Shown in pieces: positions 4,114 through 35,807 of a stretch of DNA of 36,698 nucleotides. Position numbers and translations under genes: made by a program. Numbering within the stretch: the first letter of the stretch is position 1; each line of letters starts with the position of its first letter. Under the pieces are notes generated by a model. That model was given only the letters and a program-made list of their open reading frames with translations. It did no database searches and was not told where the DNA came from. Location of the stretch: contig CACZXQ010000032.1 in NCBI GenBank assembly GCA_902785115.1, forward strand, positions 1 to 36,698. Reading direction: 5' to 3'. Source of the stretch: Oscillospiraceae bacterium. Lineage in GTDB: Bacteria > Bacillota > Clostridia > Oscillospirales > Oscillospiraceae.

Positions 4114-5301
4114 GTGGCGGCTCTGGAATATTGGCTGTGGCTTTCCTCCAGCGGGGTCAGCCCCAAGGCGAAGGCTGCGCTGCTTGCGCGCTTCGGAGAT
4201 GCGGAAACAGCATTCTTCGCCCCGCCGAAAGCCTTTGAAAAGCTGGAGGGCGTGTCAGCGCAGGAGGCGCAGCGGCTGGAAAAGCGGGAGCTCAGACGTG
4301 CGCACGAGATCGCGGGCGCCTGTGAACGGCAGGGAATCCGGATTCTTACGCTGCAGGATGCGGCATATCCGGTGAGACTGCGGAATATTTTCGCGCCGCC
4401 GGTGGTATTGTATGTCAAAGGCACGCTCCCACCCATCGACAGCAGTGTCGCCATCGCCGTGGTGGGAACACGGCAGGCCAGCCTTTACGGGCGCAAAATG
4501 GCGCGGGATCTGGCCTATCAGATGGCGCAGTCGGGCGCGGTGATCCTCTCGGGGCTCACCAAGGGCATCGACGAGGCGGCGGCGCAGGGCGCGCTCCAGG
4601 CCGGCGGAAAGATCGTCGGCGTTCTGGGAACGCCCCATGAGGAGGAGCGGGGACAGCTTGCCCGTTCAGTTGCCGCCTGGGGTGCGCTCATCAGCGAGTA
4701 TCCGCCCGGCACAGGGCAATCCAATCTCTTCTTCCGGGAGCGAAACCGCATCACCGCCGGTCTCTCGGTGGGCGTTCTCGCGGTGGAGGCACCGGAGAAG
4801 AGCGGAACCCGCCTTTTTGTAGAGGAGGCGGCTTCCCAGGGAAAGGAGATCTTCGCCGTTCCCGGCAACGCAGACGCGCTGAGCAGCGCCGGTACGCTCG
4901 AGATGCTCAAGGAGGGGGCAAAGCTTGCCACCTGCGGCTGGGACGTGCTGTGCGAATTTGAAAAGGTGTATCCCGGCACCCTGCATCGGAGCGAGCGACT
5001 GCACGCGCCGGAGGAAGCAAAACCGGAGCCGCCGAAGAAGGAAAAGCCACCGAAGGGCGCACTTGACAAGAAAAGCGGCGGAGACTATATTGACCTCAAA
5101 CAGCAGCTTGGCGCGTTGAGCGAGGATCAGCTTCGCATCATCACCGCCATGGAGGCCACGCCCACGCATGTGGACGATATTGTGGAGCGAAGCCAACTTC
5201 CGGTCTCAAAGGTGCTCGCGCAGCTCACAGTGCTGCAGGTCAAGGGCTATGTACAGCGTCTGCCCGGGCAGCGCTACGAACGCAAAATAACAAGGAAATA
5301 A
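4114..5301 (+). CDS. dprA: DNA-processing protein DprA
   Basis: DprA loads RecA onto incoming single-stranded DNA during transformation. The GTG at 4114 gives 395 residues. It is preceded by GAAGG at 4101-4105 with 8-base spacing and follows the upstream palindrome array, whereas the frame open further left only reads through repeats. An N-terminal helix-hairpin-like region (about 1-85) is followed by the Rossmann domain with VVGTRQASLYGRKM (about 115-128), SGLTKGID (about 146-153), RERNRI (about 208-213) and a KEIFAVPGN stretch. A winged-helix domain closes the protein (about 330-390), after a Lys/Pro/Glu-rich linker. The loop after VLG is shorter and less typical than in model DprA proteins. 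topA follows after 13 bases, the usual dprA-topA order in Firmicutes. Confidence 0.93.
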   Translation: MAALEYWLWLSSSGVSPKAKAALLARFGDAETAFFAPPKAFEKLEGVSAQEAQRLEKRELRRAHEIAGACERQGIRILTLQDAAYPVRLRNIFAPPVVLYVKGTLPPIDSSVAIAVVGTRQASLYGRKMARDLAYQMAQSGAVILSGLTKGIDEAAAQGALQAGGKIVGVLGTPHEEERGQLARSVAAWGALISEYPPGTGQSNLFFRERNRITAGLSVGVLAVEAPEKSGTRLFVEEAASQGKEIFAVPGNADALSSAGTLEMLKEGAKLATCGWDVLCEFEKVYPGTLHRSERLHAPEEAKPEPPKKEKPPKGALDKKSGGDYIDLKQQLGALSEDQLRIITAMEATPTHVDDIVERSQLPVSKVLAQLTVLQVKGYVQRLPGQRYERKITRK

Positions 5302-5314
5302 GGTAGGAACAACA

Positions 5315-7528
5315 ATGGCAAAAGCAAAGGATCTTGTGATCGTGGAGTCGCCGGCGAAGGCGAAGACGATCGAAAAGTATCTGGGCGGCAATTACAAGGT
5401 AACAGCGTCCATGGGGCATCTGCGGGATCTGCCGAAGAGCAAGATGGGCGTCGATATAGAAAACGGCTTTGAGCCCCAGTACATCGCCGTGCGCGATAAG
5501 TCGGAGCTCATCAGCCAGCTCAAGAAGGATGCCAAGAGTGCCAAAACCGTCTATCTCGCGACTGACCCTGACCGCGAGGGCGAGGCTATTTCCTGGCACT
5601 TGAAGGAGCTGCTGGATCTGCCGGATGAGAAGGCGCAGCGCGTGACCTTCAACGAGATCACCAAGAAGGTCGTCTCCGAGAGCATCCAGCATCCCCGCAA
5701 GATCGACCAGGATCTGGTGGACGCCCAGCAGGCGCGCCGCATCCTCGACCGCATTGTGGGCTATAAGCTCTCTCCGCTGCTCTGGCGCAAGGTCAAAACC
5801 GGCCTCTCCGCCGGGCGCGTACAGTCTGTGGCGACCCGAATGGTCGTAGACCGCGAGGAGGAGATCAAGGCCTTCGTGAGCGAGGAATACTGGCTGCTGG
5901 ACGCGCTATTGTCCCGCGGCGATTCCGGCAGCTTCACCGCCCGCTATTACGGCGAGGGGGAGAAGAAAAAGGAACTCAAGAGCCGCGAGGACGTGGATAA
6001 GATCATCGAGGATACCAAGTCCGCTCCCTTCACGGTGCGCACGGTCAAGCGCGGCGAGAAGCAGCGCACCCCGGCGCCCCCCTTCATTACCTCAACCCTG
6101 CAGCAGGAGGCCAGCCGCCGCCTCTCCATGACGCCGCGGCGCACCATGTCCATTGCGCAGCAGCTCTATGAGGGCGTGGAGATCACGGGTCAGGGCAGCG
6201 TCGGCCTCATCACCTATATGCGTACCGACTCCCTGCGCCTGTCGGAGGAAGCGCTCTCCGCGGCGAAGAATTATATCATCGGACGCTACGGGCCGGAATA
6301 CTATCCCGGCAAGCCACGCACCTTCAAAACCAAGGCCGGCGCGCAGGATGCGCATGAGGCCATCCGTCCCACGGACGTAAACCTCACGCCCGAGCTGGTG
6401 CGCAAGGATCTGACGCAGGAGCAGTACCGGCTCTACCGCCTGATCTGGGGGCGCTTCACCGCCTGCCAGATGGCAAACGCCGTATACGATAACGTGTCTG
6501 TGGACGTGGATTCCGCCGGGCACACCTTCCGCGCCAACTACTCCGAGCTCAAGTTCCCCGGCTACACCGCCGTGTACGAGGAGGCGAAGGACGAGGAGAG
6601 CGATGAGCTGAAAAACCCGCTGCCGTCTTTAAGTGAGGGCGAAGTGCTCAAGCTCGAGAAGATGACGCCCGACCAGCAGTTTACTCAGCCGCCCGCCCGC
6701 TACACGGAGGCGACGCTGATCCGCGCCATGGAGGAGAAAGGCATCGGCCGACCCTCCACCTACGCGCCGACGATCTCCACCATCACCGCCCACGATTATG
6801 TGATCAAAGAGGGCAAGTACCTGCGCCCCACGCCGCTCGGCGAGGTCGTGACGGGACTCATGAAGGAGCATTTTGCCGACATTGTGGATCTCAAGTTCAC
6901 AAACCACATGGAGGAGGAGCTGGACGAGATCGAATCCGGCAAGGCAAAATGGCGCGAGGTGCTGGGGGAGTTCTACGGCGGCTTCGATCAGGAATTTCAG
7001 AAGGCGGAGGAGAGCCTGGACGGCGTGCGCATCAAGGTACCCGATGTGCTCTCTGACGAGTACTGTGATGTCTGCGGACGGCAGATGGTGGTCAAGAAGG
7101 GCAAGTTCGGCCATTTCCTGGCCTGCCCCGGCTTCCCGGAGTGTACCTTCACCAAGCCCATCGTCGAGGTCGCGGAGGGAAAATGCCCCAAGTGCGGCAG
7201 CCAGATCCTCAAGCGGAAGTCCAAAAAAGGCTATGTTTTCTACGCCTGCGAGCGGGGAACCGACTGCGGCTTCATCACCTGGGATGTGCCGACCAAGAAT
7301 TTCTGCCCCACCTGCGGCAAGACTCTGTTCAAGAAATCCGGCAGAGGCCCCCTGAAGAGCTTCTGCATCAATGAAAGCTGCCCCAACTTCGTTCCGGAGG
7401 AACAGCGCAGCTACAAGAAGAAAACGCCCGAGGAAAAGGCGGAGAGCGCGGAGAAGAAGACTGCCGCGAAGAAGACATCCACGAAGAAAACGACAACGAA
7501 AAAGACGACGAGCGCGAAGAAGAAATAA
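5315..7528 (+). CDS. topA: Type IA DNA topoisomerase I
   Basis: A 737-residue enzyme that relaxes negative supercoils by cutting one strand. The TOPRIM domain is at the N-terminus (VIVESPAKAKTIEKYL, GHLRDLP, and DPDREGE at 84-90 for Mg2+). The catalytic tyrosine is Tyr301 in GLITYMRTDS. Three four-cysteine zinc ribbons follow near the C-terminus (CDVCG...CPGFPEC, CPKCG...CERGTDC, CPTCG...CINESC). The last 35 or so residues are almost only Lys, Thr, Ala and Glu, a basic tail that probably binds DNA; it explains why this protein is longer than many Firmicutes TopA proteins (about 690). The ATG at 5315 follows AAGGTAGG. It is co-transcribed with dprA, and trmFO starts 2 bases after its stop. Confidence 0.97.
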   Translation: MAKAKDLVIVESPAKAKTIEKYLGGNYKVTASMGHLRDLPKSKMGVDIENGFEPQYIAVRDKSELISQLKKDAKSAKTVYLATDPDREGEAISWHLKELLDLPDEKAQRVTFNEITKKVVSESIQHPRKIDQDLVDAQQARRILDRIVGYKLSPLLWRKVKTGLSAGRVQSVATRMVVDREEEIKAFVSEEYWLLDALLSRGDSGSFTARYYGEGEKKKELKSREDVDKIIEDTKSAPFTVRTVKRGEKQRTPAPPFITSTLQQEASRRLSMTPRRTMSIAQQLYEGVEITGQGSVGLITYMRTDSLRLSEEALSAAKNYIIGRYGPEYYPGKPRTFKTKAGAQDAHEAIRPTDVNLTPELVRKDLTQEQYRLYRLIWGRFTACQMANAVYDNVSVDVDSAGHTFRANYSELKFPGYTAVYEEAKDEESDELKNPLPSLSEGEVLKLEKMTPDQQFTQPPARYTEATLIRAMEEKGIGRPSTYAPTISTITAHDYVIKEGKYLRPTPLGEVVTGLMKEHFADIVDLKFTNHMEEELDEIESGKAKWREVLGEFYGGFDQEFQKAEESLDGVRIKVPDVLSDEYCDVCGRQMVVKKGKFGHFLACPGFPECTFTKPIVEVAEGKCPKCGSQILKRKSKKGYVFYACERGTDCGFITWDVPTKNFCPTCGKTLFKKSGRGPLKSFCINESCPNFVPEEQRSYKKKTPEEKAESAEKKTAAKKTSTKKTTTKKTTSAKKK

Positions 7529-25527: not shown

Positions 25528-26220
25528 ATGGTTCGCATGAAGAATGTCACAAAGGTCTATGACAGCAGCGGCACCGTTGCGCTTGACGGCATAGACCTGA
25601 TGATCGACGAGGGGGAGTTTGTCTTTCTGGTCGGCCCCTCCGGCTCCGGCAAGACCACGCTGATGAAGCTGATCACCGGCGAGGTGCGGGCGGATTCCGG
25701 CAAAGTCATCGTCAACGATTTTGACATGAACAAGATCCGCCGCCACAAGCTGCCCAAGGTGCGCAGAACATTGGGCGTCGTCTTCCAGGATTACCGCCTG
25801 ATCGAGAACATGAACGTCTATGACAACGTGGCCTTTGCCATGCGCGTCGTCGGCGCTTCCGGGCGGGAGATCAGCCGCCGCGTGCCCTATGTGCTGGAGC
25901 TGGTCGGCCTGGAGGGGCGCGAAAAGCGCCTGCCCAGCGAGCTCTCCGGCGGCGAGCAGCAGCGCGTGGCCATTGCCCGCGCCCTCGTCAACAGCCCGCG
26001 CATGATCGTGGCGGATGAGCCTACCGGCAACCTCGACCCGGTCAGAAGCCTGGAGCTGATGCTCCTGTTTGAGAAGATCAACGAGATGGGCACCACCGTT
26101 CTGGTGGTGACGCACGAGAAGGAACTGGTCAACGCGCTCTCAAAGCGCGTGATCTCCATTGACGGCGGTCATGTGATCAGTGACGGAATGGATGGGTACT
26201 ACGGCTATGAGATTGAGTAG
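25528..26220 (+). CDS. ftsE: Cell division ATP-binding protein FtsE
   Basis: FtsE is the cytoplasmic ATPase of the FtsEX complex, which transmits ATP-driven movement across the membrane to peptidoglycan hydrolases. The 230-residue protein has Walker [11 protein letters not shown] (about 36-45), the ABC signature [14 protein letters not shown], Walker [14 protein letters not shown], and the switch His in VVTHEKEL. The N-terminal [12 protein letters not shown] and FVFLVGPSG are typical for FtsE. TTGGAGGAAA is the ribosome site. The 3' end overlaps the probable ftsX start by 14 bases. Confidence 0.96.
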
Positions 26221-27091
26221 AGGCGGTTATTTGATCCGCGAGGGCTTTCGGAGCATCAAAACCCATAGCTTCATGTCCTTCGCGTCGGTTACGATTATCA
26301 TGGCCTGCCTGATCATCATGGGCAGCGTCTTTCTCCTGTCGATGAACATCGACCACCTGATCGGTGATCTGGAGGATCAGAACGAGGTCGTGGCGCTGGT
26401 GGATGAGGAATACAGCTCTGAGCAGGCGCAGAGCCTGCAGGGCGCGGTGGAGGCTGTCCCCAATGTGAGCGATGCGGAGTTTGTAGACCGCGCCGTGGCC
26501 ATGGACAACTTCCTGAACAACTTCGACAGCGATTTTCGCGACGGCATTGATGAGTCGGTGTTCCGCCACCGCTTTGTCATCCATCTGGAGGACATCGCCG
26601 TCATGAGCCAGACCAAGGCGGCGCTCGAGGACATCCCGGGCATCGTGAAGGTCAAGGCGCATCTGGAATATGCAAGCGCGTTCATCACCATCCGCAACAT
26701 CGTGAGCGTTGTGTCTCTCGTGCTGACGGTGATTTTGGTGTTCGTCTCGGTCTTCATCATGTCCAATACCATCAAGCTTGCCACCTTTGGCCGGCGTGAG
26801 GAGATCGGCATCATGAAGATGGTCGGCGCCACCAACAGCTTCATCCGCCTGCCCTTTATCGTGGAAGGCCTGGCGCTGGGCGTGATGGGCGGCGGCCTCG
26901 CCTTTCTGGCGGAGTGGGGGCTTTACAGCCTGCTTGCCAGCCGCCTCATGGGAACGCTTGCCGGCAGCTTCATCAGCGTCATTCCCTTCATGCAGGTGGC
27001 CCTGCCGATGCTGATCGCGTATCTCGGCATCGGTGTGTTCGTCGGCGTCTTCGGCGGCGTCAACGCGATACGCAATTATTTGAAAGTATAA
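26207..27091 (+). CDS. ftsX: Cell division protein FtsX
   Basis: FtsX is the membrane half of FtsEX. The ATG at 26207 gives 294 residues beginning [19 protein letters not shown], the usual FtsX N-terminus; a GTG at 26180 and an ATG at 26192 would add non-conserved residues. One membrane helix near residue 25 is followed by an external domain (about 50-160) that contacts the hydrolase. Three more helices follow, and the FGRREEIGIMKMVGATNSFI segment before the third is the conserved cytoplasmic coupling loop. The M23 peptidase gene starts 16 bases later. Confidence 0.95.
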   Translation: MRLSRGGYLIREGFRSIKTHSFMSFASVTIIMACLIIMGSVFLLSMNIDHLIGDLEDQNEVVALVDEEYSSEQAQSLQGAVEAVPNVSDAEFVDRAVAMDNFLNNFDSDFRDGIDESVFRHRFVIHLEDIAVMSQTKAALEDIPGIVKVKAHLEYASAFITIRNIVSVVSLVLTVILVFVSVFIMSNTIKLATFGRREEIGIMKMVGATNSFIRLPFIVEGLALGVMGGGLAFLAEWGLYSLLASRLMGTLAGSFISVIPFMQVALPMLIAYLGIGVFVGVFGGVNAIRNYLKV

Positions 27092-27107: not shown

Positions 27108-28439
27108 ATGAATCAAAAGAGAGCAGTACAGATTCTTGCGATCATCATGGCGGTGGTGATGGTCCTCTCTCTGATCCTGAGCGTACTGCCGACAGCGCAT
27201 GCCGTAACGCAGGGCGAAATCGACGCGCTGCGCGAGAAAAAGGCGGAGCTGACTGCCCGCGTGCAGGAGGCGGAGGAACGCCTCAGCCAGATGCAGAAGA
27301 AGGAAGCCACAGTGCTGGAGAAGAGAGATGCGCTGGAGGTTCAGAACCAGGCGTCCCTTGAAGCCCTCGCGCTCGTGGCGGAAGAGCTTCGCATGTACGA
27401 TGAGCTCGTAGCGCAGAAAACCGAGGAGCTGCAGCAGGCGCTCACCGTCGAGCAGGAGCAGGGGCGCAAGTATCGCGCCCGCATCCGCTCTATGGAGGAA
27501 AACGGTACATACGATGTGCTGGCGCTGCTGCTGCGCGCATCCAGCTTTGCAGAGCTTCTCTCTACACTGGACGATATGGATGCCATCATGGAGAGCGACA
27601 AACGCTTGGAGGAGCAGTACCGCGCCGCGCGCGAGGAGACCGAGCGCACCAAGGCCGAGTATGAACAGGTGCGCACCGAATGCGCCGACAGACAGGCGCA
27701 GCTTCGCACCGAGCAGGCGCAGCTTCAGGAGCGCATTGAGGAGGCCAACGCCCAGCTTGCGGCGCTTGCCGACGAGATCGAGGAAGCCACGCGCCTGCGC
27801 GATGAAGAGCGCGACGCCGAGGCGGCGGCAGACGCCGAGATCAAGCAGATGATCGCCGAATATGAGGCGCAGAAGCGCGCCGAAGAGGAAGCCCGCCGCA
27901 AGGCCGCTGCGGAAGCCGCCGCAAGAAACAATGCCGGGAACACCGGAAGCACCGGGAATACCGGAAGTACCGGCTCCGGCGGCGAGACAGGCAGCTCCGG
28001 CGGTGAGACGACGCAGACCCAGCCGGTTACGAACATTTCCGGCTTTACCTGGCCGGTGCCCTGTTCCCGCCGCATTTCCGGGCGCTACGGCGAAAGCCGC
28101 CCCGGGCACTTCCACAAGGGGATCGACATTGACGGTTACGGCAACGATGGCGGCAGCATCGTCGCGGCGGCCTCCGGAACAGTCATCTTCTCCGGCAGCA
28201 ACGGCGCCTATGGCAACTTAGTGACGATAGACCACGGCAACGGCTATGTGACGCTCTACGCGCACAATTCCGGCAACGCCGTGAGTTACGGCCAATGGGT
28301 CAACGCGGGCGACGTGGTGGCTTATCTCGGCGCCACCGGCAACGCGACCGGCACCCATTGCCATTTTGAGATCCGGATCAACGGCTCCACCGTTGACCCT
28401 GCGCAATACTTCGGCGGCCTGACCTACTGGAACTGCTAA
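27108..28439 (+). CDS. Coiled-coil M23 peptidase (EnvC/PcsB-like), first copy
   Basis: A 443-residue secreted protein. The signal peptide (about 1-32, ending PTAHA) is followed by a long coiled coil (about 35-262, rich in Glu, Ala, Gln, Arg), a Gly/Ser/Thr linker (about 265-300) and a LytM/M23 domain (about 318-443). The zinc ligands are His336, Asp340 and His419, with His417 in the HCHFE motif as catalytic partner, so the enzyme looks active. Coiled coil plus LytM directly after ftsX is the EnvC/PcsB arrangement in which FtsX binds the coiled coil and relieves self-inhibition, allowing cleavage of peptide cross-links. The gene lies 16 bases after ftsX with a TAGGAGA site. Confidence 0.93.
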   Translation: MNQKRAVQILAIIMAVVMVLSLILSVLPTAHAVTQGEIDALREKKAELTARVQEAEERLSQMQKKEATVLEKRDALEVQNQASLEALALVAEELRMYDELVAQKTEELQQALTVEQEQGRKYRARIRSMEENGTYDVLALLLRASSFAELLSTLDDMDAIMESDKRLEEQYRAAREETERTKAEYEQVRTECADRQAQLRTEQAQLQERIEEANAQLAALADEIEEATRLRDEERDAEAAADAEIKQMIAEYEAQKRAEEEARRKAAAEAAARNNAGNTGSTGNTGSTGSGGETGSSGGETTQTQPVTNISGFTWPVPCSRRISGRYGESRPGHFHKGIDIDGYGNDGGSIVAAASGTVIFSGSNGAYGNLVTIDHGNGYVTLYAHNSGNAVSYGQWVNAGDVVAYLGATGNATGTHCHFEIRINGSTVDPAQYFGGLTYWNC

Positions 28440-28470: not shown

Positions 28471-29787
28471 ATGAAAAACCTTACTCTTTGCAAATCCCTC
28501 GCCCTGCTTCTGGTATTCACGCTTATCGTGTGCGCGATGCCGGTTTCCGCCTTCGCGGTGACGCAGGAAGAAGTCAACGCCATGCGTGCCGAACGCGACG
28601 CGATCTCCGCCAAGCGCCGGGAGGCGCAGGCGGTCGTGGATCAGCTTGAGGCCGAGCAGGCGGGCGTCATGGAGCGCAAGCGCGCCATGGATGAGCGCAA
28701 CGCCTACACCCTTCAGGAGATCCAGCTCAATCAGGAGGAGATCAACCTTTACGACGCCATGATCGCCGCCAAAGCCAAAGAGGTGGAGATCGCGCTGGCG
28801 CTGGAACAGGAGCAGATGGAGCGCTACCGCGCCCGTCTGCGCGCCATGGAGGAAAACGGAGGCTACGGTATTTTGACCATGGTGCTGCGTACCTCGAACA
28901 TTGCGGAGTTTCTCTCCGCGATGGACGATGTGGGCGAAATTATGGAGAGCGATAAACAGCTCGAGGAAGCCTACCGCGCCGCGCGGCAGAACACCGAACG
29001 CGTTAAGGCCGAGTATGAGGCTGTTCAGACAGAGCTGGAGGCAAAGAAACGCGAGCTGCAGGCGCAGCAGGAAGCGCTTCAGGCCGAGATCGACGAGGCC
29101 GCCCGGCTCATCCTTGATCTGCAAAGCGATATTGACGCCAACCGCGAAGCGGTGGAGGCCATCCGCGCCGAGGAAGAGGCGGCGGAGCGAGAGCTGCAGG
29201 CGCTCGCGGCAGAGCTGGAGCGCCAGCGCCAGGAGGAAGAGCGCAGACGCCGTGAGGCGGAGGCCGCGGCAGCCGCCGCTGCAGCCGCGGCTGCCGCTGC
29301 GGCGGCGCAGGCGGCTCAGCCGGCGCAGAGTGCTTCCGGCGGCGGCTCGACGGCGGCGGTGGGAACCGGCTCCTTCGGCTGGCCCGTGCCGTCCTGTACC
29401 TATATCACCAGCCGTTTCGGCATGCGTGTGCATCCCATCACCGGCGAGTATAAGAGCCATACCGGACTCGATATCGGCGCGGGCTACGGTGCGGCAATCG
29501 TCGCGGCGGACGGCGGTTCGGTGTCATTTGCGGGTGTCAAGGGCGGATACGGCAACTGCGTGATGATCAATCACGGCAACGGCTATGTGACGCTCTATGG
29601 GCACATGTCCTCCATTGCGGTGAGCGAGGGGCAGAATGTGTCCAAAGGAGAGACCATCGGCTATGTGGGCAGCACCGGCGTCGCCACCGGGCCGCACTGC
29701 CACTATGAAATCTATTCCGGCGGCAGCCGGATCGACCCTGAGCAGTTCTATTCCGGCCTGACCTTCTCGGAGGACGCGGGCGTATAA
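28471..29787 (+). CDS. Coiled-coil M23 peptidase (EnvC/PcsB-like), second copy
   Basis: A 438-residue tandem paralog of the preceding gene, with the same layout: signal peptide (about 1-29, ending SAFA), coiled coil (about 30-262), linker and C-terminal M23 domain. Shared segments include MEENG, an LR-(A/T)-S stretch and (I/A)MESDK in the coiled coil. The linker contains a run of 15 or so alanines (about 263-280) instead of the Gly/Ser/Thr linker of the first copy. Zinc ligands His330, Asp334 and His411, with His409, are present. No clear ribosome site precedes the ATG at 28471, 31 bases after the first copy, so its translation may depend on the upstream gene. It is likely a second FtsEX-controlled hydrolase or a specialised version. 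Confidence 0.92.
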   Translation: MKNLTLCKSLALLLVFTLIVCAMPVSAFAVTQEEVNAMRAERDAISAKRREAQAVVDQLEAEQAGVMERKRAMDERNAYTLQEIQLNQEEINLYDAMIAAKAKEVEIALALEQEQMERYRARLRAMEENGGYGILTMVLRTSNIAEFLSAMDDVGEIMESDKQLEEAYRAARQNTERVKAEYEAVQTELEAKKRELQAQQEALQAEIDEAARLILDLQSDIDANREAVEAIRAEEEAAERELQALAAELERQRQEEERRRREAEAAAAAAAAAAAAAAAQAAQPAQSASGGGSTAAVGTGSFGWPVPSCTYITSRFGMRVHPITGEYKSHTGLDIGAGYGAAIVAADGGSVSFAGVKGGYGNCVMINHGNGYVTLYGHMSSIAVSEGQNVSKGETIGYVGSTGVATGPHCHYEIYSGGSRIDPEQFYSGLTFSEDAGV

Positions 29788-29843: not shown

Positions 29844-29868
29844 TAAGCCATGACATGGAGGTTTACTT

Positions 29869-31116
29869 GTGGGGAAAATATTTAACAGAGTTCTGCGCCG
29901 GATCGGACATTTTATCCACGGCTTTTTCAATATCGGAATCAGTCTGCGGGCAGTTGTGATCCTTCTGGCACTGGTAGGCTGCGGCACGTATTTCTGGACC
30001 TACAACAGCATGCTCAGGCAGGTCGGCGGCAGGGAAGACTACGATGAAGCCATGCGCTATATCGAAATCAAAGACCTGCTGGATGAGAAATTCATCGACC
30101 CGGTGGATCGCCAGTCCATGGGGCAGTCCGCAGCGGCGGCTATGGTCGCCGGTCTCGGCGATAGCTGGAGCTATTACATGACCGACGACGAATACCGCAC
30201 CTATCAGCTCTCCTCCTCCAACGACTATTCGGATATCGGCATGTCGCTGGTGAAGGACGAGACGCTCGGCGGCTTCCAAGTCATCGCCATTTACCCCAGC
30301 TCTCCGGCTGCCTGGGCGGGCGTGAGCCAGGGAATGCTCATCACCGCCGTGGACGGACAGAAGGTGGCCTCCTTTACCACCGACCAGGTGCGCACGCTGA
30401 TCCGCTCAAAGCTCAACAGCAAGTTCGAGCTGGAGATCAGCAACCAGTATACCATAGAGGTCGATTGCACCAACTTTAACGCCGACGCGGTGGTATCGCG
30501 CTTGGAAAAGACCGGCGCTGCCTATGTGCAGGTGAAGAACTTTGAAGCGGGCAGCGGTCAGGCGGCTGTGAACGCCATCGAGTATTATATGGCACAGGGA
30601 GCGGACTCCTGCGTGCTGGATCTGCGCAATAACGCCGGCGGCCTTGCCGGTGAGGTACAGGTGTTGCTGGACTATCTGCTGCCGGAGGGACGGCTTTTCT
30701 CCGAAGTGACCAAGGATGGCCATGCGGAGGCCTACGATTCCGACGGCATGTGGATTCAGTTTCCCATGGTGGTGCTCATTAACAGCGGCACCTTCCGGGA
30801 GTCCGAACTCTGCGCGGCGGTACTCAAGGAGTATCAGCGCGCGGTGCTGATGGGGGAATCCTCCAGTGGCAGCACCCGCTCGCAGGAAACCATTCCGCTT
30901 GAAAACGGCGGCGCTGTGCGTCTCTCCACCCGCAGCTATTTGACCGCTAACGGCACGGATATTTCCAAGGTGGGCGGCGTTGTGCCGGATATGATCGTCT
31001 TTAACAGCGATGAATCCGCCACCGGCACGACCGAGGGCACCACCGGCGGCGAGGCCGGTACCGCCAGCACCTCCGAGGACGATCAGCTCATGGCGGCGCT
31101 GAAATATTTAAGCTAA
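29869..31116 (+). CDS. S41-family PDZ protein, catalytic residues replaced (probable pseudoprotease)
   Basis: A 415-residue homologue of carboxy-terminal processing proteases (CtpA/CtpB). The start is GTG at 29869 with GGAGG 7 bases upstream. One membrane helix (about 28-47) anchors an external part with a PDZ domain (about 122-195, SSPAAWAGVSQGMLITAVDG) and the S41 core, including the LDLRNNAGGLAGEV strand-turn. In active enzymes the nucleophile and base are Ser and Lys exactly 25 residues apart, in SASE and FGKG contexts. Here the matching positions are Arg310 (in GTFRESEL) and Ser335 (in SSGSTRSQ); Gln339 matches the conserved Gln. The spacing is unchanged, so the fold is kept while the catalytic dyad is lost. 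It closes the ftsEX-M23-M23 segment and has a C-terminal Gly/Thr-rich tail. Confidence 0.88.
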   Translation: MGKIFNRVLRRIGHFIHGFFNIGISLRAVVILLALVGCGTYFWTYNSMLRQVGGREDYDEAMRYIEIKDLLDEKFIDPVDRQSMGQSAAAAMVAGLGDSWSYYMTDDEYRTYQLSSSNDYSDIGMSLVKDETLGGFQVIAIYPSSPAAWAGVSQGMLITAVDGQKVASFTTDQVRTLIRSKLNSKFELEISNQYTIEVDCTNFNADAVVSRLEKTGAAYVQVKNFEAGSGQAAVNAIEYYMAQGADSCVLDLRNNAGGLAGEVQVLLDYLLPEGRLFSEVTKDGHAEAYDSDGMWIQFPMVVLINSGTFRESELCAAVLKEYQRAVLMGESSSGSTRSQETIPLENGGAVRLSTRSYLTANGTDISKVGGVVPDMIVFNSDESATGTTEGTTGGEAGTASTSEDDQLMAALKYLS

Positions 31117-31118
31117 AC

Positions 31119-31154
31119 TACATCAGCAGTCCCCGCAAGGGGACTGCTGATGTA
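31119..31154 (+). terminator. Terminator of the ftsEX-M23-S41 unit
   Basis: A perfect 16-bp stem (31119-31134 with 31139-31154) is closed by a GCAA tetraloop, 2 bases after the S41 stop. There is no T-tract, but the stem is very stable. Confidence 0.7.
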
Positions 31155-31302: not shown

Positions 31303-31332
31303 TTGACATTGCCCGGGGTATTTGGGTATAAT
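31303..31332 (+). promoter_or_regulatory. Promoter of greA-lysS
   Basis: A perfect TTGACA (31303-31308), 18-base spacer and perfect TATAAT (31327-31332). Confidence 0.85.
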
Positions 31333-33951: not shown

Positions 33952-34028
33952 TGATAATAGTAAGAGGAACCTAACGTTGAGTTTGGTTCCTTTTGCCTAT
34001 TTTTAAAACAAAAGGAGGATTTCAGACT

Positions 34029-35807
34029 ATGAAATCTAAATTAGCTTCCAACCCGGCAAAGAAGATTCTTTGCCTCGCACTGTGCGCGATCATGCTGATC
34101 GCCATGTTGCCGGCCATGGCAGTGCCGGCCTATGCAGCGGATGAGGATGTTGAAATCGGCTCTGTGTGGATTCAGTATGTGGATGCTGATACACACGAAG
34201 AAATTGCAGAACCCACTCTCTTGCATTATGAAGACTTACCTGATGGCCTCTTTACGATGGAAGATGTCCCAGATATCGAGGGTTATACAATGGTCAACAC
34301 ACAGCGGTTTGTTGAGGGGGCTATAGACAAAGATCATGCTCACGTAACAAAGACTGGGGCTTGGCGTTATAGTGATTTTCCAATTAGCTATCAGCTTTCC
34401 GATGAAAATGATTGGGGTAAGTTTAGACTCATCTATAACAACGATAAAGCTGACAGTGGCTATATTAAGATCAACAGCGATACCTATTATGAACATGATC
34501 CATCATGGACAGATATGACATATATTTATTACTATGATGACATGACCAACGGTGAATATTCTATTGATCTCAATAAAGCAGGATATCAGATCATGGAGAT
34601 ATATGAAGAGATTTCTAGGACATCGATAACTGTACCCACCAATGGTATCTTGACAGGAACATTGGTACAGGGAGATGTTCATAAGCTAACTGTCTACTAC
34701 GTTCCCGACACCAACACTTCTTCTTTTAATTCCGTCCTTCTTCTGAACGAGAATTCAAGCGTTCCCAATGCCACGATCAACTATAGCATCGAGCCTGGCA
34801 CCGGCATTGCTGCTGTTCCTGGAACATCGATGGCTGTCCTTGCTCCAAGCACTGACACCGGCGTGACCGGCGCCCCGACGATCAGTAATGCGGTGTTCGC
34901 TCCCGGCGACGCCACCGTTACCTCCGTTGAAGGTGTGACCATTGATGCGGGCGAGAAAGCCGTTGTAAAGCCCATCTCCGTTGATTTCTCCGGCGTGACC
35001 TTCGCGCAGCCGGGTATCTTCCGTTACGTGATCAGTGAGCCGTCCAGTGGCAACAATATGACCTATGATACGCAGCTGAACGACACGACCAACGGTACCC
35101 GCTACCAGCGCGTCCTCGACGTTTACGTTGTCCGTAACGCCAGCGATGAATACGAGATTGGCGGATTCGTTCTCCATGAAGTGGCCGGCGCCGTTAACGA
35201 AGGCGAAACCACGGCCGCGGATAAGTCTTCCGGCTTCGTGAATGAGTACAACACCACGGGCCTCACGCTTGAGTGCCAGGTTGAAGGCAACCAGTCGTCC
35301 ATCGATAAGTACTTCGCTTACACGATCACCATGCAGAACCCCGGCAACAGCGCGTTCAACGTCTCTGCTGATTGGTCGAATGCTTCCGGCGCACAGAATC
35401 CTGTTGCGAACCCTGCAACCAGCTATACAAACGAAGCGATCACAGCGGCCAATACGAATGAGTGGACTTCCAACGCCGATGGATCTATGAGCAAGACCAT
35501 CTATCTGAAGGACGGCCAGAAGGTCGCGCTCGACGGCATCCCGGTTGGCACTGCTTACAGCATCACGGTCGCCGAGGAAGACTACGGCCCGAGCTGGGTC
35601 GTCGGCAGCGATAACGGTAGCAACGATGCAACCGGCAACCGCACGCTGAACGCTGTTGAAGATGTGGTCTTCACCCTTACGCGTGAAGGCGTCGTTCCCA
35701 CGGGTGTTGCACTCTCCATCCTTCCTGGCGTCATCCTCATGGGCGCTGCGGCTACATTCTTCTTTGTGATGAAGAATCGCAAAAAGGAAGAGGGCGCAAA
35801 CGCGTAA
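34029..35807 (+). CDS. Sortase-anchored pilin-like surface protein (Spy0128/FctA-type and DUF7601 domains)
   Basis: A 592-residue cell-wall protein. The ATG at 34029 follows AAAGGAGGA. The signal peptide covers about 1-36 (ending VPAYA). Residues about 40-230 are a poorly conserved, tyrosine- and aspartate-rich region with MucBP-like character (SVWIQYVDADTHEEIAEP). Residues about 230-410 are a Spy0128-type isopeptide pilin domain: SVDFSGVTFAQPGIFRYVIS, then VLDVYVV, and the closing SGFVNEYNT with the candidate bond-forming Asn. Residues about 415-550 are a DUF7601-like domain. The end is a VVPTG sorting signal (555-559), a membrane helix and NRKKEE. VPTG resembles the EVPTG signal of streptococcal FctA, so a class B/C-type sortase elsewhere is implied. 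DNA for about residues 50-235 is much richer in A and T than the rest. Confidence 0.87.
   Translation: MKSKLASNPAKKILCLALCAIMLIAMLPAMAVPAYAADEDVEIGSVWIQYVDADTHEEIAEPTLLHYEDLPDGLFTMEDVPDIEGYTMVNTQRFVEGAIDKDHAHVTKTGAWRYSDFPISYQLSDENDWGKFRLIYNNDKADSGYIKINSDTYYEHDPSWTDMTYIYYYDDMTNGEYSIDLNKAGYQIMEIYEEISRTSITVPTNGILTGTLVQGDVHKLTVYYVPDTNTSSFNSVLLLNENSSVPNATINYSIEPGTGIAAVPGTSMAVLAPSTDTGVTGAPTISNAVFAPGDATVTSVEGVTIDAGEKAVVKPISVDFSGVTFAQPGIFRYVISEPSSGNNMTYDTQLNDTTNGTRYQRVLDVYVVRNASDEYEIGGFVLHEVAGAVNEGETTAADKSSGFVNEYNTTGLTLECQVEGNQSSIDKYFAYTITMQNPGNSAFNVSADWSNASGAQNPVANPATSYTNEAITAANTNEWTSNADGSMSKTIYLKDGQKVALDGIPVGTAYSITVAEEDYGPSWVVGSDNGSNDATGNRTLNAVEDVVFTLTREGVVPTGVALSILPGVILMGAAATFFFVMKNRKKEEGANA

Follow-up and report, generated by a model that had tools for sequence, protein, structure and literature searches.

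C-terminal processing proteases (CTPs) are already known as degraders of peptidoglycan hydrolases. Those of E. coli and P. aeruginosa act on such enzymes (PMC8764530, PMC3808539, PMC11021448), and in P. aeruginosa the CTP CtpA, together with its adaptor LbcA, has been reported to degrade M23 and NlpC/P60 hydrolases (PMC11021448, PMC8764530). The catalytic residues of B. subtilis CtpB are given as Ser309, Lys334 and Gln338 (PMC3808539, PMC8764530), and Ala453 of Prc is described as supplying one amide of the oxyanion hole (PMC6686036). Loss of the serine alone was reported to abolish cleavage by CtpA of H. pylori (PMC12749690) and of P. aeruginosa (PMC8764530), and the S309A variant of CtpB still binds a C-terminal peptide and reaches the active conformation (PMC3808539). 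As for the FtsEX complex, its function in B. subtilis and C. glutamicum has been found to need extra membrane co-factors (PMC6705773). A protein already called a pseudoprotease is CspC of C. difficile, of the subtilisin type, which is thought to act in signal sensing (PMC6636752) and is unlike the protein described here in both its fold and the process it serves (spore germination). Among the matches listed from the open-licence literature, no description was found of a dead S41 CTP encoded beside ftsEX.

The window analyzed in this work is the whole 36,698-nt stretch CACZXQ010000032.1, from a gut bacterium of the Oscillospiraceae, and the window protein is the product of the ORF at 29869-31116 (+). 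The features of the locus are the following:

25528..26220, + strand: FtsE (Pfam; TIGR02673, 272.6 bits against a cut-off of 264.85)
26180..27091, + strand: FtsX (Pfam; NCBIfam score of 223.5 bits, just under the cut-off of 225)
27108..28439, + strand: M23 hydrolase a, coiled coil and M23 domain with HxGxD and HxH motifs, ending in TYWNC (Pfam and pattern)
28471..29787, + strand: M23 hydrolase b, coiled coil and M23 domain with HxGxD and HxH motifs (Pfam and pattern)
29857..29861, + strand: GGAGG ribosome-binding site, 7 bases 5' of the GTG (read from the sequence)
29869..31116, + strand: putative pseudo-CTP, an S41 homologue of 415 aa with GTG start, consisting of N-terminal membrane anchor, PDZ and S41 core
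29944..30024, + strand: hydrophobic N-terminal segment, about residues 26-52, probable signal anchor (sequence reading; helix 26-52 in a poor AlphaFold model)
30205..30468, + strand: PDZ region, about residues 113-200 (Pfam and alignments)
30232-30234, + strand: Asp122 codon, replacing the first Gly of the PDZ carboxylate-binding loop (alignment)
30403-30405, + strand: Arg179 codon, at the place of the CtpB sensor Arg168 (placed by alignment and spacing)
30520..30996, + strand: Peptidase_S41 core, residues 218-376, including the LDLRNNAGG turn (Pfam)
30796..30798, + strand: codon of Arg310, which occupies the position of the catalytic Ser (alignment)
30799..30801, + strand: codon of Glu311, in the position of Prc Ala453, the oxyanion-hole Ala (alignment)
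30871..30873, + strand: codon of Ser335, which occupies the position of the catalytic Lys (alignment)
30883..30885, + strand: Gln339 codon, third triad position, retained (alignment)
31119..31154, no strand assigned: perfect 16-bp inverted repeat right after the S41 stop, possible operon end, with no T-run on the + strand

The position of the S41 gene after ftsE, ftsX and two M23 hydrolases, as given in the preliminary description, was confirmed by Pfam, with FtsE also above its NCBIfam cut-off, and the metal-ligand motifs are intact in both M23 proteins. Since a hairpin (31119-31154) follows the stop codon and a consensus promoter-like site is found before greA at 31303-31332, the operon probably ends with the S41 gene. 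Further along the window, 33993-35807 encodes a 604-aa surface-type protein with a DUF7601 domain and a C-terminus in which a hydrophobic part precedes a basic tail; this protein is possibly anchored to the wall.

Judged by its sequence, the window protein belongs to the C-terminal-processing (CtpB/Prc) type of PDZ-S41 proteins and is full-length, with a predicted membrane topology that places the S41 part outside the cell. Pfam identifies Peptidase_S41 (PF03572; 6.7e-30, 104.3 bits against a cut-off of 24) and, ahead of this core, PDZ_6 (1.3e-06, 28.5 bits against 27), while the CtpB-type N-terminal domain PF22694 gives 20.2 bits against a cut-off of 27. Its relatives by sequence in the PDB are CTPs: 7rqh/7rpq (6e-35), the photosystem II D1 protease (8e-27) and B. 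subtilis CtpB (6.5e-23). An AlphaFold model built from 7 rows was poor (mean pLDDT 51.5, pTM 0.37) and was set aside. The NCBIfam model TIGR00225 (prc) gives 161.2 bits against a cut-off of 218.6, but proteins with an intact Ser-Lys dyad often fall below it too (three of five control rows from the family and both from the genus), and this cut-off was dropped as a mark of dead proteins. Domain order, PDZ, S41 core and triad spacing are the same as in B. subtilis CtpB, Prc, CtpA and the D1 protease; compared with CtpB and the other CTPs, the window protein differs in the replacement of both dyad residues, in a Glu on the oxyanion-hole Ala and in an Asp for the first Gly of the carboxylate loop. 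A weak relative in the PDB is interphotoreceptor retinoid-binding protein (9frx, 1.5e-12; 1j7x, 1.2e-4), a eukaryotic retinoid carrier with repeated modules in which an S41 fold without a protease role is put to binding use; we know of no link between this protein and FtsEX.

When the window protein was aligned to 7rpq with phmmer, residues 300-342 were free of gaps, and R310 fell on the catalytic Ser, S335 on the Lys and Q339 on the Gln. The spacings of 25 and 4 residues (310/335/339) are those of Ser309-Lys334-Gln338 in CtpB. With respect to the features of S41A membership, the catalytic Ser is absent (Arg310), as is the general-base Lys (Ser335), and Gln339 is present. It had been claimed that Arg310 and Ser335 stand in place of Ser and Lys in a protein that keeps the PDZ domain, the LDLRNNAGG turn and the spacing, and that Gln339 matches the third conserved position; Pfam and the 7rpq alignment bore out the former, and the latter agrees with the same alignment and with the invariance of this residue described below. 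A sequencing error is unlikely, because the identical R/S pair is present in the separate assembly of a relative with 93-94% identity to the window (row L033, the same as L142). Glu311 aligns with the oxyanion-hole Ala (Prc Ala453), although Glu at this position does not remove the oxyanion amide.

The distribution of the dyad was then surveyed at the level of genus, family and order. In the genus draw, made up mostly of draft genomes, an orthologue was present in 90 of 101 genomes and in 33 of the 34 good ones (completeness of 90% or more, contamination of 5% or less). The alignment contained 89 of these 90, the copy of G183 (row L139, RN type), split over two frames at a contig start, being left out; rows L001/L032 (window copies), L065/L066 (copies of L025/L003) and L142-L147 (repeats of genus rows) were dropped. 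The Ser-Lys dyad is absent from 86 of the 89 aligned orthologues, referred to here as dead rows, and the pairs found at 310/335 are RN (22 rows), GK (15), GN (11), AS (9), AK (9) and GR (6), along with the rarer RS (5), SR (3), AM (3), GM (2) and KN (1). Ser-Lys is kept only in L114, L128 and L131, which are 50-54% identical to the window protein and belong to another clade. Intact dyads in close relatives, which would point to recent decay, were looked for and found in none of the 33 rows of the window clade. The idea that the Arg/Ser replacements might be fixed in the clade held in part: RS is restricted to the window and its four nearest rows, and Arg is present in 27 of the 33, but the two positions are variable in the remainder of the genus.

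Outside the genus, 94 of 95 rows from the same family are Ser-Lys-Gln, in a set that excludes low-scoring S41 proteins of another kind (L194-L207) and S41 proteins near 600 aa and that drew on only part of the 111 genomes with an S41 match among the 150 of the family draw. The exception is Asp-Ser-Gln. The order sample (197 genomes) yielded 66 rows of 65 loci among the better-scoring matches listed, 9 of them in the same family and 57 outside it; both Ser and Lys are present in 56 of these 57 (54 Ser-Lys-Gln and 2 Ser-Lys-Ile), the other one being Asp-Lys-Gln. With such proportions in family and order set against 3 of 89 in the genus, the dyad is, as far as sequences tell, a near-constant that fails in this genus. 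Recent decay and assembly error were ruled out as explanations by the genus survey and the separate assemblies, and the proposal of a pseudoprotease gains support in sequence terms, the dyad being replaced genus-wide while domain and reading frame persist.

Several individual cases deserve mention. Six of the relatives are metagenome assemblies, from sheep or with RUG names, which we take to stand for rumen genomes. Of the 11 genus genomes without a match, 4 have a clear ftsX orthologue; in three of these 4 the contig ends inside the second M23 gene, and in the other, G161, a good genome (99% complete), the S41 gene is missing at the locus and another frame lies between M23 and greA. The only dead S41 protein (Asp-Ser) among the 95 family rows outside the genus is L070 (genome G084 of genus g84, 4949-7455), whose locus has two M23 genes, the second with HLD instead of HxH and the first ending in YYC, like most genus loci; it possibly represents a parallel conversion. 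In another family of the order, L286 (genome G376, 217-1455) has tandem S41 genes, one of them with Asp for Ser (DKQ), and L271 and L282 keep Ser and Lys and have Ile for Gln at the third position.

Phylogenetic analysis placed the genus in one clade against the outgroup (support 100/100). The label dead or Ser-Lys needs 4 changes, 4 being forced by the starred branches, and over 200 bootstrap trees the number was 4 at both the 5% and the 95% points. Without regain of the dyad, at least five losses are needed: in L063 plus L138, in L123, in L130, in a five-row GR clade and in a 77-row clade whose support (90/92) is not fully firm. The residue pair itself changes state 18 times in the tree with 8 outgroup rows and 19 times in a quick tree with 23, both of which carry long-branch warnings. 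Among the long branches of the 8-outgroup tree is L133 (genome G155), an S41 orthologue with no recognised M23 or greA neighbour, which could be a chimeric contig or a moved gene. In the dead rows, 310 and 335 belong to the more variable third of positions 60-385 (of these 326, 86 vary more than 310 and 61 more than 335). Residue 311 is Ala in 94 of 95 family rows versus Glu in 83 of 89 genus rows, the remaining ones having Ala (L063 and L138) or Cys (four rows). Because all three Ser-Lys rows of the genus also have Glu311, the active site of the main lineage may, on these sequences, have changed before the dyad eroded. Two pairs of sister rows differ in the dyad: L123 (AM) and L128 (Ser-Lys), and L130 (GK) and L131 (Ser-Lys).

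Immediately 5' of the S41 gene, an M23 gene is present in 86 of the 89 genus loci (two more lack the flank, and L133 has none), as it is in 81 of 94 family loci. On the 3' side, greA is the first recognised gene in 84 of 89 and 63 of 94 loci, respectively. A PucR-type gene precedes ftsE in 53 of the 55 genus loci and in 51 of the 58 family loci whose fetched stretch includes ftsE. Since Ser-Lys relatives in the family show the same order, the order is older than the loss of the dyad, and because these active-type relatives share it, gene order alone is no argument for a new role. The M23 motifs were found by pattern in 135 of 136 genus frames of at least 300 aa, the exception (L115) being a shifted frame. 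At least two M23 frames are present in 52 of 56 genus loci versus 8 of 59 family loci, but duplication of M23 as the cause of dyad loss was rejected, given four dead loci with a single M23 (L063, L138, L099, L121) and a comparison that is essentially a two-clade contrast. A C-terminal Cys, mostly as part of (S/T)YYNC, is carried by an M23 protein in 37 of 56 genus loci (by the first one in loci with two), and an M23 protein ending in Cys is seen in only 3 of 59 family loci. The partner of this residue may be the Cys in WPVPC, where the M23 domain begins; a disulfide between the C-terminal Cys of M23a and Cys200 of the S41 protein was considered and dropped, as Cys200 stays in the 19 genus loci without the terminal Cys. 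Separately, C-terminal residues of the S41 protein such as DDQLMAALKYLS (window 31078-31113) are found again, behind a linker of low complexity, in many rows of the genus and in some of the family.

Taken together, the results suggest that a degrading enzyme has turned into a non-cutting partner of the cell-wall machinery. The explanation we favor, and consider somewhat probable, is that of a pseudo-CTP: a membrane-anchored extracellular PDZ-S41 protein in which hydrolysis has been lost nearly genus-wide and which is kept as a binding partner of FtsEX and the M23 hydrolases. It would descend from a CTP encoded after ftsEX and M23 which, by analogy with described CTPs, would have caught proteins of the envelope (probably the M23 hydrolases encoded next to it) by means of its PDZ and tunnel and then degraded or trimmed them. 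Peptide-bond hydrolysis would have been lost in nearly the whole genus, with fold, place and sequence staying under selection, and the present protein would still use N-terminal, PDZ or cap surfaces to dock its M23 partners or FtsX at the membrane, regulating or positioning the M23 hydrolases without cutting them. A role of the S41 protein with hydrolases is plausible from gene position and from what CTPs do elsewhere, and the inactivity of the protein, its binding of M23 or FtsX and the direction in which it affects the hydrolases are predictions. Conservation in the dead rows suggests that the genus kept docking and lost cutting. Arg179, at the place of the CtpB sensor, is Arg in all 86 dead rows, but only in 35 of the 94 family rows with Ser-Lys. 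The first Gly of the PDZ carboxylate loop (residue 122; CtpB Gly113) is present in 94 of 94 Ser-Lys family rows versus 34 of 89 genus rows, and because it is replaced in the other 55 (by Asp in 46, the window included), binding of C-termini by the PDZ may be gone in these rows.

A pseudogene-like decay of an enzyme that had become useless would fit the 18 changes of state at the catalytic positions and the one genus copy of 90, that of G183, that is split; the other 89 copies, however, are single frames, all but one of the good genomes keep the gene, and dN/dS is far below 1, with values of 0.027-0.137 in 20 of 21 pairs and 0.209 in L123/L128 (the pairs were hand-picked among close rows, and dS exceeds 1 in some). 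The dN/dS of the S41 gene is below that of every M23 gene compared in 17 of these pairs, between two M23 genes in 2 and above in 2, and below that of ftsX in 11 of the 16 pairs where ftsX was comparable. The gene is under strong purifying selection, and decay appears extremely improbable. What selection maintains could be the fold only, as a structural piece (a dimer or ring scaffold in the envelope) that does not handle M23 proteins. Residues that the genus has fixed and that are rare in the family are indeed found not only at the groove, but also in the N-terminal region (Y64, K68, R81) and at 183-217, and the altered PDZ loop in more than half of the genus rows points the same way. Nevertheless, R175, R179, D251, R253, N255, G257, G258, E262, E313, G334 and Q339 are invariant in all 86 dead rows, and the absence of any variation in the DxRxNxGG turn and Gln339 is more than a mere scaffold seems to need; the retained order with M23 also speaks against this explanation, which we regard as unlikely.

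The constancy of Gln339 could instead mean that the protein is still a peptidase using other residues, and residue 308, which is Thr or Ser in all 86 dead rows, might be one of them; moreover, 24 dead rows keep Lys335 and 3 keep Ser310. Thr or Ser is, however, equally common at 308 in Ser-Lys relatives (93 of 94), 59 of the 86 dead rows (all but the AK, GK and SR types) have neither member of the dyad, and neither Lys nor His is the commonest residue at any position of 249-262 or 300-345 in the dead rows, because of which a conserved second Ser-Lys pair is unlikely. We judge such an activity very improbable. The protein might also, as a subunit, regulate an active S41 enzyme whose gene lies at another place in the genome; this explanation, which we find improbable, would agree with the presence of more than one S41 domain, among the matches listed, in 34 of the 93 S41-bearing genus genomes (G183, with its split gene, included), and in view of these genomes S41 activity need not be lost from the genus. 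By hand count, on the other hand, the ftsEX-linked gene is the only S41 domain among the matches listed in 57 of the 93, including the genome of the window, although absence from a draft is not proof, and the extra S41 domains listed score no more than 87.4 bits, below the ftsEX-linked copies. Two further genomes have only another kind of S41 among the matches listed. A separate expansion is seen in G164, G210, G217, G220, G231 and G244, with 8-14 S41 domains each, mostly, among those listed, in frames near 600 aa. Because CtpB serves sporulation in B. subtilis, loss of sporulation was also tested as a cause of dyad loss, and was not supported: of the 101 genus genomes, 66 have SpoIVB above its cut-off, including the nearest relatives of the window (G194, G200, G182, G211), as do 130 of the 150 genomes of the family draw; none was found in the draft genome of the window itself.

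Returning to the pseudo-CTP, a fuller history can be outlined only tentatively, and we consider it possible but doubtful: in one genus a CTP would have become a non-cutting FtsEX co-factor, in the main lineage through Glu311 first and then repeated erosion of Ser310 and Lys335, with a separate loss in L063/L138 that kept Ala311 and a parallel case in L070 of genus g84 (Asp-Ser, with the second M23 short of one HxH histidine). The window S41 gene is encoded with ftsEX, like an FtsEX co-factor, and contact of its product with FtsEX is a prediction. SweDC and SteAB are membrane proteins that FtsEX needs for hydrolase control, which by analogy is what is proposed for the pseudo-CTP. To our knowledge, neither of them is an S41 protein. 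They differ also in that SweC and SweD are described as having intracellular C-terminal domains (PMC6705773).

If this history is true, conversion into a pseudo-CTP would be a route by which FtsEX regulators arise repeatedly. That the FtsEX-linked CTP of a clade is strongly conserved although its dyad is almost always missing suggests that selection can act on binding instead of on degradation, an idea that the natural sister pairs L123/L128 and L130/L131 make directly testable.
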